The notes beneath the pieces are model-generated. The model saw nothing but the letters and a program-made list of their open reading frames with translations. It ran no database searches and was not told the origin of the DNA. A stretch of DNA of 56,087 nt, from assembly GCA_031288865.1 (NCBI GenBank), contig JAITQN010000110.1, positions 1 to 56,087 of the forward strand. Direction: 5' to 3'. The position numbers were made by a program, and so were the translations under genes. Numbering within the stretch: position 1 is the stretch's first letter; each line of letters starts with the position of its first letter. Below are positions 3,889 to 52,658 of this stretch, piece by piece. This DNA comes from Prevotellaceae bacterium. Its GTDB lineage: Bacteria; Bacteroidota; Bacteroidia; Bacteroidales; UBA932.

Positions 3889-5361
3889 ATGGCAAAAGAA
3901 ATAACAAATCGGGAAGAAAACTACTCCTTATGGTATAATAATTTGGTGGTGAAGGCTGATTTGGCTGAAAACTCGGCGGTTAGGGGCTGTATGGTGATCA
4001 AGCCTTATGGATATGCGATTTGGGAGAAAATGCAAAGAACGTTGGATGAAATGTTTAAGGAAACAGGACACGTCAATGCCTACTTTCCGCTGTTTATTCC
4101 GAAGTCGTTTTTGAGCAAGGAAGCCGAACATGTAGAGGGCTTTGCAAAAGAATGTGCGGTGGTGACGCATCACCGCTTGATGAACGACCCCGACGGAAAG
4201 GGCGTGGTGGTCGACCCGTCGGCGAAATTAGAGGAGGAGCTGATTATCCGCCCCACGTCGGAAACGATTATCTGGAACACGTATAAAAACTGGATTAAGT
4301 CGTATCGCGATTTGCCGGTGCTGTGCAACCAGTGGGCCAACGTGGTGCGGTGGGAAATGCGCACCCGGCTGTTCCTGCGCACGGCGGAGTTTCTGTGGCA
4401 GGAAGGGCACACGGCGCATGCCACGCAACAGGAGGCGGTGGAAGAAACCGAACGCATGGTGCAGGTCTACGCGTCGTTTGCGCGCGACTGGATGGCCATG
4501 CCGGTGCTTGTGGGCAGCAAAACGCCGAGCGAACGCTTTGCCGGTGCGCTGGATACGCTATGTATCGAGGCGCTGATGCAGGATGGAAAGGCGCTGCAGG
4601 CGGGCACGTCGCACTTCCTGGGACAGAATTTCGCGAAAGCGTTCGACGTGCAGTTTGCCGGCAAGGAGGGTAAGCTGGACTACGTGTGGGCTACGTCGTG
4701 GGGCGTGTCTACGCGCCTGATCGGGGCGCTGATTATGGCGCACAGCGACAACAGCGGCCTTGTGCTGCCTCCGAAACTGGCGCCGCTGCAAGTGGTGCTG
4801 GTACCTATTTATAAAGGTGACGAAGAATTGTCGCAGCTCGCGGAGTATTTGCAACCGGTGAAGAAGGCGCTGGAGGCGAAAGGCATTACGGTGAAATTGG
4901 ACGACCGAGACAATGTGCGGTCGGGCTTCAAGTTCGCCGAGTGGGAGATGAAAGGCGTGCCGGTGCGCATCGCAGCAGGCCCGCGCGACCTGCAGCAGGG
5001 AACGCTGGAAGTTGCCCGCCGCGATACGCTCGAAAAACAAAACGTGTCCAAAGACGGGATAGGCGCTTACATCGAACAGCTGCTCGTTGCCATACAGGAT
5101 AATATCTACAAAAAGGCCTACGATTTCAGGGAAGCGCATACGTTCACGGTCGACCGCTACGAGGAGTTTAAAACGCGCATCGAAGACGGCGGGTTTTTCC
5201 TCTGCCACTGGGACGGCACGCCCGAAACCGAAGCGAAAATCAAGGAAGAGACAAAAGCCACCATCCGTTGCATCCCCGCCGGCGTGCCGCCGGAGCCGGG
5301 AACCTGCATGGTTACCGGGAAACCCTCGGCGCAACGTGTGGTGTTTGCCCGTGCATACTAA
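3889..5361 (+). CDS. proS: Prolyl-tRNA synthetase (archaeal/eukaryotic-type)
   Basis: 490 aa; '[57 protein letters not shown]' class II motifs and C-terminal ProRS domain ending in Tyr. Confidence 0.95.
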
Positions 5362-12703: not shown

Positions 12704-15703
12704 TTATTGAATTGCAGCTAAACGTGTTTTTACCACATCGATAATTCCGTCTCCTTCTATAGTGTATTCGTTTACGATGCTTTTATATGTGGCTTTCGCC
12801 TGTTCTATTTCGTTTCGTGTCACGTAGATGTCGCCCAGGATGATGAAGCTTTGCGCCAACCAGTAGGGTTGTCTGCTTTGCGCATCCGAGAAAGCGAATA
12901 CGGCGTTTATGGCCTCGTCGGCGCGGTCGCTTTGGTGCAATATTTCGATGAAACGAAATGCGGCTTCGGCGCCTTCGGGCGTCTTGATAAAGTTGTCGGA
13001 GAGTTGTTTGTAAAACACCATGGCCCCCTCGTTATCTCCCAACTGCTGCGTTGATTTTGCGCGTATGAGCATGGCCTTTAGCCTGTCCTGTTCGCCGGCG
13101 GTTGAAAACCGGAGTACACTTTGCGCCATTTCAATCGCTTTTTGATAATTTTTCAGGTTGAAGCAGGCTTCTGTAATCCGCGATGTGGCTTCGAGGTTAT
13201 AGTTTTCTACCTGGGTAGAAGCGAGCAGTTTTTCATACGATTTGATGACCTCGCTGTAATCTTCGAGCCTGTATACGCTGCGTGAATATCCCAGCAAGGA
13301 TAGTTCGGTAAATGCATTTTGAGGCTGTCCGGTCACAAAACCGAAGTGTTTTCTGGCTTCGCTGTATTGCCGCTTGCGGAACAGGCAGTCGCCGAGGTAA
13401 AAATTAACATGGATGGTATGAGATGATGCGGGATACGTTTGCAGGAAATTTCTAAGCGCGTTAATGGCCTCGTCACACTCGCCGGAGAGGTATATCTTTT
13501 CGGCCTGAATGAAGCGGCTGTTTTGTTTTTCAATTTCTCTTTCGGCCTCGCTGCCTTTATCAATCGCCAGTTGGTCGACGAAGCTGTAGTAGCTTTCAAT
13601 GTCGTTGATATCCTGATAGGCGTTTTTCAGCCCCGACAGCGCGTTTTGTGCGTCCTGCGAGCCGGGATTAATTGATATGGCCTTTTTGTAATAGTCGATG
13701 GCTGCAGCATAGTTGCCGGTATTCACGTTGACTAATCCGAGTTCGATGAAAGCCAGTTGGCAGTAGGGGCTCGCGGGGTATTGCCGTGTGATTTTGAGGA
13801 ACGCATTGCCGGCCAGGTCGAATTTATTCAGCCGGAAGTACGTGCGTCCCATCTCATAAATTCCCGGAGGGGTGTATTCGGCCTGCGGAAGCTCTGAACT
13901 GAGGGAGTTAAGTATGTCCAACTTCTGTTGTGTTTTGCCTGCCAGTCCCATGGACATGGCTTTTTGATACATGGCATAATCCACGTGATTGGCTTTGAGC
14001 CGTATGGTTTTGTCGTAGTTTTCGGCCGCTAAGGTATACTTCTGTTGGGTAAAATAACAATCGCCGATGCAGTTGTAGGCGTCGCCGAGGTATTTGGTGT
14101 CGTTCTTTGCCAGGTTTACATATTTCCTGAACCAGCTTATGGCCTCGTCGTGTTGCTGCATCTTTAAGGCGCAATAGCCGATGTTGTAGTGGGCGAGCTG
14201 GAATTCGGATTTGTTGTTGAACGCCCCCTCGGCGTGGATAAAGTCCTCATATTGCTTCTTTGCTTTCCGGTAGTTGCGGCTTTTGTAGAGGGCTTCGGCC
14301 TTCCAGTAGCGCGCCGTAGCAGCAAGATAGGAATCATATTTGCTGTAAGTGAGGGAATAGTCGAATGATTTGATGGCGCTGTCGTATGCCGCGGCGTCGT
14401 ATGAAGCCATAGCCTGGATGAACGCGATGCGCTGGATATCGGCATAGTCCGTGTCGGTGTGTTTAGGCAGGGCGAGGAGCGTTTCTATGGCTTTTTCGTA
14501 ACGTTTATCTACGGTGTAGGCAATAACGAGTATGCGGCTTATGTCTTTTTGCGGATAGGCCTTGTGATAGTCGTAAAGGGGATCGGTGTTGTTATGCAGT
14601 TCCAGCGCCAGCTTGGCGGCGTTAAAGGTGGTAATGTTTTTAATGGCATAGTTGAAATCCATTTTCCCGGCGGCATTGAAGTAATCGAGCGCTTTTTCGC
14701 TGTTTCCCGTTCGCAAGGCGATGTCGCCGGCGTAGTAAAGCGCATTTTGCGCCAGCGAATCGGTGCGGATGGTTAATACGGAGTCGAGCACCTGCAGCGC
14801 TTCGGGATATTGTTTGAGCCGGTAATAAAGCGAGGCCTCCAGGTAATAATCGTTGCGGGTTATCTGTGCGGCATTTTCGCGGTAAAGGTTAAAGTAGCGG
14901 AGCGATTCCTCGTATTGCTGCATCTTAAAATACGCATTGGCGATCAGGTAGGCAATCTCCGGATACCGCGCATCATCAACGGTTTTGAGCAACGGCACGC
15001 CGAGGGTGATTATTTTTTCATATTCCTGTTGATAGGCGTGGATCTGAAGCGTATAGAGGGCAATCAATGAAGCAAAACGGCCGTCGGTGGCTATCTCCTG
15101 TAAGGAGGTGTTGGCCGACAAATAATTTTTGTGCAAATATTCGATGTGCGCATAATAATAAGTAGAGGTAATGCTGTAGTCGCTGAAAGGCAGCGCCCTG
15201 ATGTGGGAAAACAGCGACTGCGCCTTGTTGAAATCATCGGTTTTGAAGTAGGCGTAGGCCTGTAAGTACAGGCATTCTATCCTGTCGTCGGCGTTCAGTT
15301 CCCTGTTGTCGACTTTTTCAAACCACGTGATCGCCTTACGGTATTGCCCGGTGCCGCACAGTTGCTTTGCTAAGGAAAAATGGATGTAGTCTGCGTTTGG
15401 GTTGCCGGGCATTGCTTTGTCAAGCTGTATCACCAGGTCTTCGGTATGGTCTAATTGTAACTTGATGGCGCACAATGTGAGGTGCGACGCAATGTCGATT
15501 TGCAGTATTTCGTTGGAAGCAACCTCCGCAGCTTTTTTAAATTGCGTTTGCGCGTCGGTATATTGCCCTTTTTTATACAGGTCTATGGCGCTGGAATAAT
15601 AGGGGTTGCCAAATCCGGTATGAACCTGTGCCGGTGCAATAAAACGGCTTGTACAAAGAAACAAGGCACAGATAAACAGTCGGTAGCAAAGTTTAATTTT
15701 CAT
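12704..15703 (-). CDS. Large periplasmic tetratricopeptide repeat protein
   Basis: 999 aa, signal peptide and many TPR-like repeats ('YDKTIRLKANHVDYAMYQKAMSMGLAGK', 'AIDYYKKAISINPGSQDAQNAL'). Confidence 0.8.
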   Translation of the reverse strand: MKIKLCYRLFICALFLCTSRFIAPAQVHTGFGNPYYSSAIDLYKKGQYTDAQTQFKKAAEVASNEILQIDIASHLTLCAIKLQLDHTEDLVIQLDKAMPGNPNADYIHFSLAKQLCGTGQYRKAITWFEKVDNRELNADDRIECLYLQAYAYFKTDDFNKAQSLFSHIRALPFSDYSITSTYYYAHIEYLHKNYLSANTSLQEIATDGRFASLIALYTLQIHAYQQEYEKIITLGVPLLKTVDDARYPEIAYLIANAYFKMQQYEESLRYFNLYRENAAQITRNDYYLEASLYYRLKQYPEALQVLDSVLTIRTDSLAQNALYYAGDIALRTGNSEKALDYFNAAGKMDFNYAIKNITTFNAAKLALELHNNTDPLYDYHKAYPQKDISRILVIAYTVDKRYEKAIETLLALPKHTDTDYADIQRIAFIQAMASYDAAAYDSAIKSFDYSLTYSKYDSYLAATARYWKAEALYKSRNYRKAKKQYEDFIHAEGAFNNKSEFQLAHYNIGYCALKMQQHDEAISWFRKYVNLAKNDTKYLGDAYNCIGDCYFTQQKYTLAAENYDKTIRLKANHVDYAMYQKAMSMGLAGKTQQKLDILNSLSSELPQAEYTPPGIYEMGRTYFRLNKFDLAGNAFLKITRQYPASPYCQLAFIELGLVNVNTGNYAAAIDYYKKAISINPGSQDAQNALSGLKNAYQDINDIESYYSFVDQLAIDKGSEAEREIEKQNSRFIQAEKIYLSGECDEAINALRNFLQTYPASSHTIHVNFYLGDCLFRKRQYSEARKHFGFVTGQPQNAFTELSLLGYSRSVYRLEDYSEVIKSYEKLLASTQVENYNLEATSRITEACFNLKNYQKAIEMAQSVLRFSTAGEQDRLKAMLIRAKSTQQLGDNEGAMVFYKQLSDNFIKTPEGAEAAFRFIEILHQSDRADEAINAVFAFSDAQSRQPYWLAQSFIILGDIYVTRNEIEQAKATYKSIVNEYTIEGDGIIDVVKTRLAAIQ

Positions 15704-49239: not shown

Positions 49240-50583
49240 ATGATGCCTGATCTAATGGGGAAAGAACAAACATATTCATACGCCGATGCGACTGCTTTTT
49301 TGTTTAATAGCCTGCCCATGTATCAAAAAATCGGGAAGCTGGCCTACAAGCCCGATCTGAGTACGGCGCTGGCGTTTGACGCATATTTTAAATCGCCCCA
49401 CCGGCGGTATAAGTCTATCCATGTGGCCGGCACCAACGGAAAGGGCTCTGTGTCGCATATTCTGGCTTCGGTGTTGCAGAGCGCGGGCTACACGGTGGGC
49501 TTGTTCACCTCGCCGCACCTGAAGGATTTCCGCGAACGGATCAGGGTGAACGGCGCGCCCATTCCCGAAGAGGAGGTCGTTCATTTTGTGTCGAAGCACG
49601 AAGCGGAAATAAAAACGCTGAGCCCGTCGTTTTTTGAGATGACTTCGGCGCTGGCGCTGGAATATTTTGCGCGGCAACACGCAGACGTCGCCGTGATAGA
49701 AACCGGCATGGGCGGGCGCCTCGACTCTACCAATGTGGTCAGGCCGGTGCTGAGCATCATCACCAATATCGGGATGGACCACACCGAGCATCTGGGCGAT
49801 ACGCCGGAAGCCATCGCCGCCGAAAAAGCAGGAATCATAAAGCAGGATGTGCCCGTGCTGGTAGGAGAGTGGCGCCGCGAAACGGCGCCTGTCTTCGACC
49901 GTGTGGCGCGGGAACAGCATGCGCCTTTATACTACGCCGACCACCTTCTGCGGGTGCTGCGTGCGGAACAGCGTGGCGACATGCAGTGTTTTTCCTTAGT
50001 GGCCGACGGCAGCCTGTTCCCTTTCGAGGCGGCCATCGACCTCAAAGGCCGCTACCAGCAAATAAATATCGTGACGGCGCTGGCGGCGATAAATATATTG
50101 GGCGGCAGGTTCTCGAAAATCAGAAAGCCGCTGCTGTCGATTTCCGATGAGGCGCTGGCGCACGGATTGAGCCATGTGGCGGCGCAAACCGGTTTGCGCG
50201 GGCGCTGGGAAATCATTGCCGAGCGGCCGTTGATTATTTGCGACACGGGGCATAACGCCCACGGACTGGCCGAGACCATGCCGCAGCTTCAGGCGTTGCC
50301 ATATCGCCGTCTGCATTTTGTTTTCGGCGTGGTGCAGGATAAAGACCTCGACAGCATGCTGCCCCTGTTGCCGGTCGACGCCTATTATTATTTCACGCAG
50401 GCCGACCTGCCCCGCGCCATGGATGCGCGGCAACTGGCCGAACGCTGCATTGAATACGGCCTGCAGGGACAGGTGGTGCAAACGGTGTTCAATGCCTTGA
50501 AGGTGGCGCGGGGGAACGCCCTGCCCAGCGATGTCATTTTTGTGGGCGGCAGCACCTTTGTGGTGGCGGAGGCGCTTCCCTGA
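49240..50583 (+). CDS. folC: Bifunctional folylpolyglutamate synthase/dihydrofolate synthase
   Basis: 'SIHVAGTNGKGSVSHILASVLQSAGYTVGLFTSPHLKDFRERI', 'VIETGMGGRLDSTNVV'; listed ORF start at 49147 overlaps tRNA-Leu so ATG 49240 (or 49255) preferred. Confidence 0.93.
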   Translation: MMPDLMGKEQTYSYADATAFLFNSLPMYQKIGKLAYKPDLSTALAFDAYFKSPHRRYKSIHVAGTNGKGSVSHILASVLQSAGYTVGLFTSPHLKDFRERIRVNGAPIPEEEVVHFVSKHEAEIKTLSPSFFEMTSALALEYFARQHADVAVIETGMGGRLDSTNVVRPVLSIITNIGMDHTEHLGDTPEAIAAEKAGIIKQDVPVLVGEWRRETAPVFDRVAREQHAPLYYADHLLRVLRAEQRGDMQCFSLVADGSLFPFEAAIDLKGRYQQINIVTALAAINILGGRFSKIRKPLLSISDEALAHGLSHVAAQTGLRGRWEIIAERPLIICDTGHNAHGLAETMPQLQALPYRRLHFVFGVVQDKDLDSMLPLLPVDAYYYFTQADLPRAMDARQLAERCIEYGLQGQVVQTVFNALKVARGNALPSDVIFVGGSTFVVAEALP

Positions 50584-50707
50584 AAAAAGTGTATTCGCAC
50601 AACACTTTTATCCTGAAAAAAGTGTATGGCATCGGAGTATCAGGCCTCAAATACCAAAATTCTCAAGACTAATTAAATTCGTATAACATATTTTAACACT
50701 TCTGCGC

Positions 50708-50737
50708 TTGCATTTCCAAAAATTGTACTTACATTTG
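50708..50737 (+). promoter_or_regulatory. Strong consensus Bacteroidota promoter (TTG-N19-TACATTTG)
   Basis: TTG 50708-50710; TACATTTG 50730-50737; no ORF immediately downstream. Confidence 0.65.
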
Positions 50738-50743
50738 CGCCGT

Positions 50744-50852
50744 AATCTTTTTGTTCTTTGGATGTTTTTTTAAACAGGCGTGTGTCTAATTTTCTATTTT
50801 TTCGGGTGCTTCGCGGTATCCCTGAAACAAGATTTTAGACACACGTCTTTTT
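50744..50852 (+). ncRNA. Candidate structured small RNA ending in a terminator-like hairpin
   Basis: GCGTGTGTCTAA...TTAGACACACGTC stem followed by TTTTT; inner TTTCGGG...CCCTGAAA stem; flanking CTTTGG/CCAAGAAAG and AAAC/GTTT complementarity; promoter just upstream. Confidence 0.5.
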
Positions 50853-50948
50853 AGTTTACACCCAAGAAAGAAATAAATCAAATTTATTCTACAGTTAAAA
50901 ATACACGTTGCATTTTAAATGCGATGCGGGATTGTATTGTTCTTTGGT

Positions 50949-51015
50949 AAAAGGCCGCTATGAATCAGTTCTTCTTCTTTTATCACCTACTTGCGTACGG
51001 CGGCCTTTTCTTTTT
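50949..51015 (+). terminator. AAAAGGCCGC/GCGGCCTTTT dyad with ~41 nt loop and T-rich tail
   Basis: Arms 50949-50958 and 51000-51009, followed by CTTTTT. Confidence 0.45.
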
Positions 51016-51016
51016 A

Positions 51017-51051
51017 ATTATGAATTTTGAGTTATGAATTTTGAATTAATT
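51017..51051. repeat. Heptamer (7-bp period) intergenic repeat
   Basis: ATTATGA ATTTTGA GTTATGA ATTTTGA ATTAATT. Confidence 0.8.
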
Positions 51052-51065
51052 AAAAAACCTGTATT

Positions 51066-51944
51066 ATGAAAAAAATGTTTTTACTACTATTATGCTGCCC
51101 TGTGGTGCTGGTAGCGCAAAGCGGCATCACCATTTCCGATTATTCGGTAACGCCCGGTGCGCCCGCTACGGTGTCGTTTACCGTGAGCTGGAACAAAGAC
51201 AAAATCGACAGCGCGTGGGTGTTCGTGGATTACAACGATAGCGGCACGATGACCCGCCTGCCGCTATCGGGCGTTACCGCTTCGGCCGGCAGCAGGGCCT
51301 ACATGGTTGATGGCAACGACCGGGGCGCATGGGTGGTCGCCGGCGCTTCCGGCGCTTTTTCGGCCACCGTCCAACTGGTTGCCACTTGTAAGGACGCACG
51401 GCCGTGCGTCCCTACCGGCGCGTGCGTGTATGCCATCGACTACCCGCCGGTGGGGAAATACACGGCGTACAATGAATTTCAATTCCGGGGGACTCCACCT
51501 TTCTATATATGGTTTGCGGAAGGTGGCAGTGATACCCATACTTTATCTAATACCGCGTACTCGCTGCCTGAGAACTTGTCCATCGGAACTTTTACCGACG
51601 CTTCGGGCGCTACCGGGATTATGGACTGCGGGTCCACGTTCACAGCTGGGATCGGCCAATGCAGTACCGTTTGCCGTGTCGAGTATGCCATGGATTATAA
51701 CTCCTGCCGCATCCCATTAGACACCCCGCTTGCAACCATAGCTAATGAGCACTGCACTGATGCTTGTGTTGTGTATACGTATACTGCTTGGAGTTCTTGC
51801 GGTACAGAAAGTGCGCCCCCCTGCCCACCGAACTCCTGGGTTGTAAGTACTCAATCCTCTCATTGCAAATGCCTCGAGTGGAGCGAGTATTATTGTAAAA
51901 AAGAGCTAATGACACTTCGACATCGTTGCATTACATATCTTTGA
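51066..51944 (+). CDS. Secreted hypothetical protein with Cys-rich C-terminus
   Basis: 292 aa; signal peptide MKKMFLLLLCCPVVLVAQSG; contains an in-frame 28 bp palindrome at 51388-51415; family not recognised. Confidence 0.6.
   Translation: MKKMFLLLLCCPVVLVAQSGITISDYSVTPGAPATVSFTVSWNKDKIDSAWVFVDYNDSGTMTRLPLSGVTASAGSRAYMVDGNDRGAWVVAGASGAFSATVQLVATCKDARPCVPTGACVYAIDYPPVGKYTAYNEFQFRGTPPFYIWFAEGGSDTHTLSNTAYSLPENLSIGTFTDASGATGIMDCGSTFTAGIGQCSTVCRVEYAMDYNSCRIPLDTPLATIANEHCTDACVVYTYTAWSSCGTESAPPCPPNSWVVSTQSSHCKCLEWSEYYCKKELMTLRHRCITYL
51388..51415. repeat. 28 bp palindrome (one mismatched pair) inside an ORF
   Basis: GTAAGGACGCACGGCCGTGCGTCCCTAC; inner 20 bp GGACGCACGGCCGTGCGTCC perfect. Confidence 0.9.
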
Positions 51945-52079
51945 TGCTATTCAAATCGCCCATACCGTCCTCAGCGCTCATCTGCTCGCATCCATACTTG
52001 TACTAAGTTGGTGTGCGGGCTGCGGCGTTGCCAAAACGAACGGGGGCTGCGGCGCACAACCCCTTCCCGAGGCGTACGG

Positions 52080-52276
52080 GACACGAAACGAGTATATTGA
52101 TTGGCGTCCCGCAAGCTGCGAGACACGAAACGAGTATATTGATTGGCGTCCCGCAAGCTGCGAGACATGAAACGAGTATATCGATTGGCGTCCCGCAAGC
52201 TGCGAGACACGAAACGAGTATATTGATTGGCGTCCCGCAAGCTGCGAGACACCAAACGAGTAGTTGTTTGGCGTCC
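52080..52276. repeat. 42 bp minisatellite, four full copies plus a partial
   Basis: Units GACACGAAACGAGTATATTGATTGGCGTCCCGCAAGCTGCGA at 52080, 52122, 52164 (two substitutions), 52206; degenerate partial at 52248. Confidence 0.95.
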
Positions 52277-52320
52277 GCGACGGTCCGGGAAAACAAACAA
52301 TGCGTAATGTAACGCCTAAA

Positions 52321-52351
52321 GGTTCGGGGGAGGTTCAACCTCCCCCGAACC
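52321..52351. repeat. Perfect 15+1+15 bp palindrome
   Basis: GGTTCGGGGGAGGTT-C-AACCTCCCCCGAACC. Confidence 0.95.
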
Positions 52352-52372
52352 GGGAACAGCCATCCCCTCAGG

Positions 52373-52519
52373 CATTAGCCGCAACACCTCCGGCATTAGC
52401 CGCAACACCTCCGGCATTAGCCGCAACACCTCCGGCATTAGCCGCAGCACCTCCGGCATTAGCCGCAGCACCTCCGGCAGTAGCCGCAACACCTCCGGCA
52501 TTAGCCGCAGCACCTCCGG
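52373..52519. repeat. 21 bp minisatellite, seven copies
   Basis: CATTAGCCGCAACACCTCCGG with A/G (AACACC/AGCACC) and ATT/AGT variants; closed by TCCGGCA-AC-TGCCGGA hairpin at 52515-52530. Confidence 0.95.
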
Positions 52520-52594
52520 CAACTGCCGGAACCCCCTTGCCGGGCTACGGCACACTTCCGAAAGTGTGGTACGCCTGTGCGCTGTGTGAAGTAT

Positions 52595-52625
52595 TTGTAT
52601 AACTCTATTTTTTAGCGTAACTTTG
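52595..52625 (+). promoter_or_regulatory. Promoter of the prolyl oligopeptidase gene (TTG-N20-TAACTTTG)
   Basis: TTG 52595-52597; TAACTTTG 52618-52625; ATG at 52659. Confidence 0.6.
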
Positions 52626-52658
52626 CATACGTGTTTCTCAGTTTTAATTTTTTATATC

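Follow-up and report, generated by a model that had tools for sequence, protein, structure and literature searches.

The window analysed here is a stretch of 56,087 nucleotides (nt) from a Prevotellaceae bacterium (JAITQN010000110.1, contig C64 of a draft genome of 1.63 Mb, 71% complete and in 167 contigs). Two ordinary genes near its right end, folC (with Mur ligase domains) and an S9 prolyl oligopeptidase gene, identities that a sequence-only reading of the window had proposed and that a domain search confirmed, flank a composite locus: a promoter, a hairpin RNA, a second terminator-like dyad, short repeats, a gene for a secreted protein, two palindromes and two minisatellites. All of these features are present where that reading had placed them. 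They are not independent elements lying side by side, however, but parts of one insertion, which is one copy of a repeated accessory unit made up of a Bacteroidota promoter, a structured leader RNA and a secreted-protein gene. The RNA belongs to a family that is spread through the phylum Bacteroidota and is absent from the Rfam 15 catalogue, and its members are likely to act as transcription attenuators.

An inserted copy of a repeated unit

In G002, G003 and G004, three congeneric genomes, folC directly adjoins the S9 gene. When the window is aligned to this junction in G004 and G002, homology ends at 50573 and restarts at 52592/52593, so the composite locus is an insertion of 2,018 base pairs (bp; 50574-52591, no strand assigned). 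G003 is the most divergent of the three relatives (72% folC protein identity) and also lacks the insertion, so a gain in the lineage of the window is simpler than three losses. Neither a target-site duplication nor a recombinase was seen in the insertion. The junction being empty in these relatives, with no repeats in the interval, the outcome named beforehand as refuting (unrelated, independently placed repeats) did not occur, and the proposal of a repeat-recruiting hotspot finds no support; copies of the 42-bp array and the 28-bp palindrome described below, moreover, are present in the genome at further loci of the unit.

A search of the window's own genome with positions 50690-52640 gave 119 matches, and these resolve to one order: promoter block, variable middle, second leader block and start of the secreted-protein gene. 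The core of promoter, TGTTCTTTG, hairpin RNA, second terminator and secreted protein occurs more than 20 times in the genome, which bears out the alternative proposal of an uncharacterised RNA/protein unit. Many copies sit at contig ends, as expected because repeats break the assembly.

The promoter block (50683-50745, + strand) forms the left edge of the similarity between units and is 88-100% identical to many other sites in the genome. It holds a TTG at 50708-50710 and, after a 19-nt spacer, TACATTTG at 50730-50737; no open reading frame (ORF) begins directly downstream. The Bacteroidota promoter consensus is TTG...TAnnTTTG, and since the promoter is of this type a simple sigma-70/terminator scan is, as expected, uninformative at the locus. 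A first boxA-like motif, TGTTCTTTGG (50752-50761, + strand), lies in what is the opening segment of the leader RNA in the window's genus, and the remnant of that RNA follows at 50775-50853. TGTTCTTTG is invariant in alignment A1; because it is missing from many distant copies of the RNA, this boxA-resembling sequence is a local addition.

The second leader block (50895-51016, + strand) contains a GTTGCA...TGCGATGC hairpin, a second copy of TGTTCTTTGG at 50938-50947 and a terminator-like hairpin with a U-run at 50949-51009 (fold -17.6, z -2.2). At least 10 other copies have it at about 73-98% identity, and stem changes among them are compensated (GGCCGC/GCGGCC, GGCTGC/GCAGCC). In genome G000 a second terminator-like hairpin stands ahead of the gene, which makes two serial stops likely there. 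The terminator loop holds a possible leader peptide, MNQFFFFYHLLAYGGLFF..., and control through this poly-Phe ORF (50960-51037) was considered and rejected: in several paralogous copies a stop codon precedes the Phe run, so the peptide is not conserved. The A+T-rich spacer before the gene carries a heptamer repeat, TTTTGAATTATGAA, with a period of 7/14 bp (51011-51048, + strand), and repeats of this type give short matches at many sites in many relatives, which marks them as common genomic sequence.

The gene itself (51066-51944, + strand) encodes a secreted protein of 292 amino acids with a signal peptide, a conserved N-terminal part of about 190 residues and a variable C-terminus. It belongs to a multicopy family, being 30-60% identical to 19 paralogues and homologues. 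The structure predicted for it is beta-rich to about residue 190 (mean predicted local distance difference test score 62.8), and a fold search found no match in the PDB at E <= 0.001. The likeness to FISUMP secreted proteins (TIGR02145/PF09603) is confined to the C-termini of some paralogues, which carry FISUMP or Ig_7 domains, whereas the ORF of the window has no Pfam or NCBIfam match, FISUMP included, and what the family shares is the unnamed beta-rich N-terminal region.

The remaining repeats, none with an assigned strand, are passengers. The 28-bp palindrome within the gene, GTAAGGACGCACGGCCGTGCGTCCCTAC (51388-51415, 93% arm match), occurs at 19 sites in the genome at up to three mismatches, most of them at places that match the window gene, and some paralogues lack it. 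The 42-bp minisatellite (52080-52276, about 4.7 copies, 94% matches) has related arrays at other unit loci, on contigs C72, C101, C161, C73, C117 and C154. The perfect 31-bp palindrome (52321-52351, arms 100%) has no second copy in the genome within three mismatches, and the 21-bp minisatellite (52366-52531; 7.4 copies, array 52366-52521, 95%), which is closed by a TCCGGCA/TGCCGGA hairpin, has no further copy among the own-genome matches. That these last two lack second copies speaks for a fortuitous accumulation of unrelated repeats in a gap that tolerates them, an explanation that we hold to be highly improbable, for it is already contradicted by the paralogous units, whose order is conserved over many loci, and by the empty gap in three relatives.

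Two exclusive helices in the leader RNA

Intact members of the family are about 160-230 nt long (model length 175 nt). A short hairpin, P1, is followed by a long rod consisting of stems S1, S2 and S3 and an apical helix between strands a and b, and then by a 3' strand, c, with its U's. Strand c is complementary to strand b, and the helices a:b and b:c, which share strand b, are mutually exclusive. The support for these pairings lies in their covariation, the counts of which ignore phylogeny. The 11-copy within-genus alignment gives a rod of 44 pairs with 87.4% of cells paired and a covariation score of 0.500 (0.212 when shuffled, at most 0.13 when slid), and b:c is there 97.5% paired with 7 of 11 pairs changed on both sides. 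For the rod plus P1, 86 copies give 91.3% of cells paired and a score of 0.757 (0.237 shuffled, at most 0.09 slid) and 42 class-wide copies give 91.0% and 0.721 (0.223 shuffled). Helix a:b is 99.0% paired and b:c 96.6%; double changes are seen at 6 of the 7 pairs of a:b and at 5 of the 7 of b:c. In 39 of 42 cases the b:c pairing of a copy is better than that of the median foreign combination. Some copies have triple changes that preserve both helices, as at locus L190, where a is CTCACC, b is GGTGGG and c is CCACCC.

G-U pairs outnumber A-C mismatches by 390:74 in the rod, 39:5 in b:c and 64:0 in a:b. This excess places the function in the transcript and not in the DNA or on the opposite strand.

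The copy in the window (50775-50853, + strand), which is the remaining 3' part of a structured RNA of about 175-230 nt, comprises strand b, the arms S3', S2' and S1', and strand c with its U-run, which together make up a terminator hairpin. Compared with full-length copies it lacks P1, the 5' arms of S1-S3 and strand a; the other copies carry about 100 nt in the middle that are absent from it. Its hairpin arms lie at 50771-50789 and 50835-50853, and the segment 50737-50880 folds at -43.2 kcal/mol, against -24.5 +/- 3.4 kcal/mol for its shuffles (z -5.4; 0 of 200). The copy is truncated and, strand a and the 5' arms being lost, should be locked in the terminator state; its only action is probably termination.

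Two further pairings were considered and dropped. One between the loop of P1 and the segment before strand a was convincing by eye but is no better than in shuffles (77.2% paired against 75.3%; 88 of 500). The idea that the GAAA/TTTC and GGT/ACC hairpins kiss at the same time was abandoned because the four stems would be joined by next to no linker.

Genomic context and proposed mode of action

In the class-wide set of 42 copies the gene downstream of the RNA is co-directional in 40, at a median distance of 55 nt, and the upstream gene in 19. TAnnTTTG precedes 32 of 41, 11 of 21, 20 of 20 and 36 of 42 copies in the sets examined, against 4.4, 1.7, 2.2 and 4.5 expected; the last set is the class-wide one. 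A U-rich 3' end follows b:c in 97 of 126 copies. A promoter motif upstream and a co-directional gene downstream make the layout that of a leader and not of a free-standing RNA. By a simple hydropathy rule 16 of 40 downstream genes have a signal-like N-terminus, compared with 5 of 42 upstream genes, and the downstream genes include, by eye, SusC-like receptors, a sigma factor, a response regulator, lipoproteins, methyltransferases and acyltransferases.

Some loci have further company. Six of the 42 class-wide copies (L181, L182, L184, L189, L191 and L198) have a small, divergently transcribed regulator-like gene, in most cases resembling XRE by eye, at 93-117 nt upstream. At L208, L213 and L197, and also at L077, the RNA stands directly before large genes that resemble restriction-modification methyltransferases by eye, and at L213 and L077 it also lies downstream of DUF1016-like nuclease genes, again by eye.

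Two exclusive helices with a common strand, a terminator as the alternative state and a position between promoter and gene can be seen in the sequences, as can the U-run, and from these we infer regulated termination, with a default state and a signal. The family would then be a cis-acting transcription attenuator leader set before many accessory, often exported genes, a reading to which we give a probability of about 0.6. Transcription would start at the promoter, and the rod and a:b would form as the RNA emerges. As long as the rod persisted, b would be held by a and the polymerase would read into the gene. If the rod were disturbed, b would pair with c and, with the U-run, form an intrinsic terminator at which transcription would stop.

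Several points weigh against attenuation. The window copy barely matches the family model (50752-50852, 22.9 bits, E 0.12, on a scale of E-values that is rough). Alignments A4 and A5 were fitted to the rod model, so that the rod counts, though not those of b:c, are inflated; an artefact of covariation is argued against by the low values of the slid controls and by the independence of b:c, which is absent from the structure of both models. The first downstream ORF is co-directional in only 7 of 10 cases in G000 and 9 of 15 in G002, counts that are weaker because the leader is longer in the window's genus and contig ends interrupt many of the copies. Some copies have no clear U-run, and the downstream genes are too diverse for one obvious signal.

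Most copies have a promoter motif and a U-run of their own, and multicopy families of trans-acting small RNAs are known in Bacteroides (FopS; PMC11697453). The RNA could accordingly be an independent small RNA, equipped with a promoter and terminator, that acts in trans and is merely located before accessory genes. We regard this as unlikely, given that the downstream genes are so consistently co-directional and close while the strand of the upstream gene is random, that a stand-alone RNA needs no second partner for b in competition with the terminator, and that FopS RNAs are only 65-70 nt long.

A sensor of one small molecule, perhaps a second messenger, would explain why one leader stands before many types of gene. 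Variable helices, invariant joints and a terminator/antiterminator pair are the usual anatomy of a riboswitch, and the family has all three: the joint AA is present in 71 of 77 copies and ACC or GCC in 76 of 77 (ACC in 71, GCC in 5), whereas the stems vary, with 68 distinct S1 octamers in the 77 copies. Even so, we would give a riboswitch rather poor odds. No ligand is known, the downstream genes follow no consistent pathway, as those of a metabolite riboswitch should and those of a second-messenger riboswitch would not need to, and even tandem copies that are near-identical differ by a remodelled S1.

This remodelling is one of several odd properties of the RNA. S1 is distinct in each of 17 copies in G000 and each of 13 in G018. 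G050 has a tandem duplication in which S1 differs on both arms with its pairing kept, although the DNA downstream is 96-99% identical. The duplicated segment, L131 (contig C295, RNAs at 2775-2948 and 4676-4855), comprises the RNA and two genes, with identical and diverged stretches in alternation; in its ORF1, near-identity extends over about 130 bases and then gives way to divergence. Across G000 the mean pairwise identity is 0.87 for promoters, 0.75 for unpaired RNA columns and 0.55 for S1-S3. Gene conversion of the flanks may play a part. Stems diverge at orthologous sites too: at L127 (G000, contig C48) and L106 (G002, contig C66), an orthologous unit in two species with upstream flanks 76% identical over 2.5 kb, S1, S2 and S3 all differ yet stay complementary. 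S2 nearly excludes G-U, with 3 in 818 pairs compared with 85 in 1,020 in S1 over all copies (e.g. L145 and L185). The bases flanking S2' themselves pair, as GGT:ACC 95 times, GGC:GCC 8 times, GGT:GCC 6 times and GGC:ACC never, a covariation hinting at a competing small hairpin. Each leader, with its private self-complementary S1, might recognise itself or a partner dedicated to it, unaffected by the dozens of sibling leaders in the same cell, but this idea is improbable. The S1 arms gave no signal as guides to their own locus, with 0.259 9-mer matches per own locus and 0.218 per other locus.

Variable stems between conserved joints would also suit a structure that marks a mobile cassette, that is, a folded recombination or insertion site that, like the attC site of an integron, moves together with the gene that follows it. 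The clean 2,018-bp insertion with its empty site in relatives fits such a site, as do the many scattered copies before accessory genes, restriction-modification-like genes among them. The bias of G-U over A-C and the U-run, which put the function in the transcript, the promoter motif directly upstream, and the want of a target-site duplication or recombinase in the window insertion make this less probable still than a riboswitch.

Distribution and relation to known systems

The attenuator-like RNA is widely distributed. Model R1 finds it in 24 of 60 relatives of the same order, with 21 copies in the window's own genome and 33 and 37 in two relatives; members of other families hold 23 and 11. 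Model R2, built from 86 copies, detects the RNA in 78 of 293 class-level genomes (E <= 0.001) and 26 of 199 at the level of the phylum (E <= 0.0001), nine of them outside the class; the per-genome counts of these wide scans are lower bounds, as only the best few candidates were scored. A copy also lies on plasmid pB3-10 of the cultivated Rhizosphaericola mali B3-10 (Chitinophagaceae), at about 15009-15178 of NZ_CP044017.1 and upstream of the gene for WP_131332050.1. A strong one (L240, MT836897.1, 2681-2878, 80.4 bits) is found in an unverified phage-labelled scaffold from human faeces. When 22 loci were searched against Rfam 15 (E up to 5 or 2), nothing matched the RNA save at chance level and far below the gathering score, and the window at the gathering score yielded one tRNA and nothing else. 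The locus L066 holds, besides a copy of the RNA, a domain of a group II intron (Rfam E 6.6e-11) and a DUF805b RNA near the threshold (223-298 and 2713-2747). The RNA was not found described in literature searches, which covered papers other than subscription articles and preprints. An RNA with such covariation, up to 37 copies per genome and members from the window's own family out to other Bacteroidota classes would have been expected in the catalogue already.

Two structured elements of mobile DNA offer themselves for comparison. The integron attC site works as a folded bottom strand and depends on an integrase; here the G-U excess favours an RNA of the top strand, no genome-wide search for an integrase having been made. 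The bridge RNA of IS110 adjoins the IS110 transposase, and no transposase was recognised by eye beside the own-genome RNA copies, the ORFs of which were only partly profiled.

The boxA-dependent and LoaP/UpxY systems of processive antitermination are alike in having two serial terminators and a boxA-like TGTTCTTTG directly behind the promoter, as seen in the window's genus and in some others; they differ in that the motif is missing from many distant members and so is not a defining part of the present RNA. FopS and GibS of Bacteroides are likewise a multicopy Bacteroidota RNA family. FopS RNAs, in 14 copies, act in trans and have a promoter of the sigma-ABfr type (PMC11697453). The present RNA is not a stand-alone RNA of 65-70 nt but a leader of 160-230 nt with a long rod, with a model of 175 nt, and is set apart from FopS and GibS by description and not by sequence.

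There is a close likeness to transcription attenuators and terminating leaders, which share the 5' position after a promoter, the exclusive upstream and terminator helices, the U-run and the gene on the same strand. The present family differs from them in that its members have no downstream pathway or gene family in common, number up to 37 in a genome and each have stem sequences of their own. If it is a regulated stop signal, many accessory and exported genes of Bacteroidota, including those for SusC-like receptors and restriction-modification-like genes, share one control signal.
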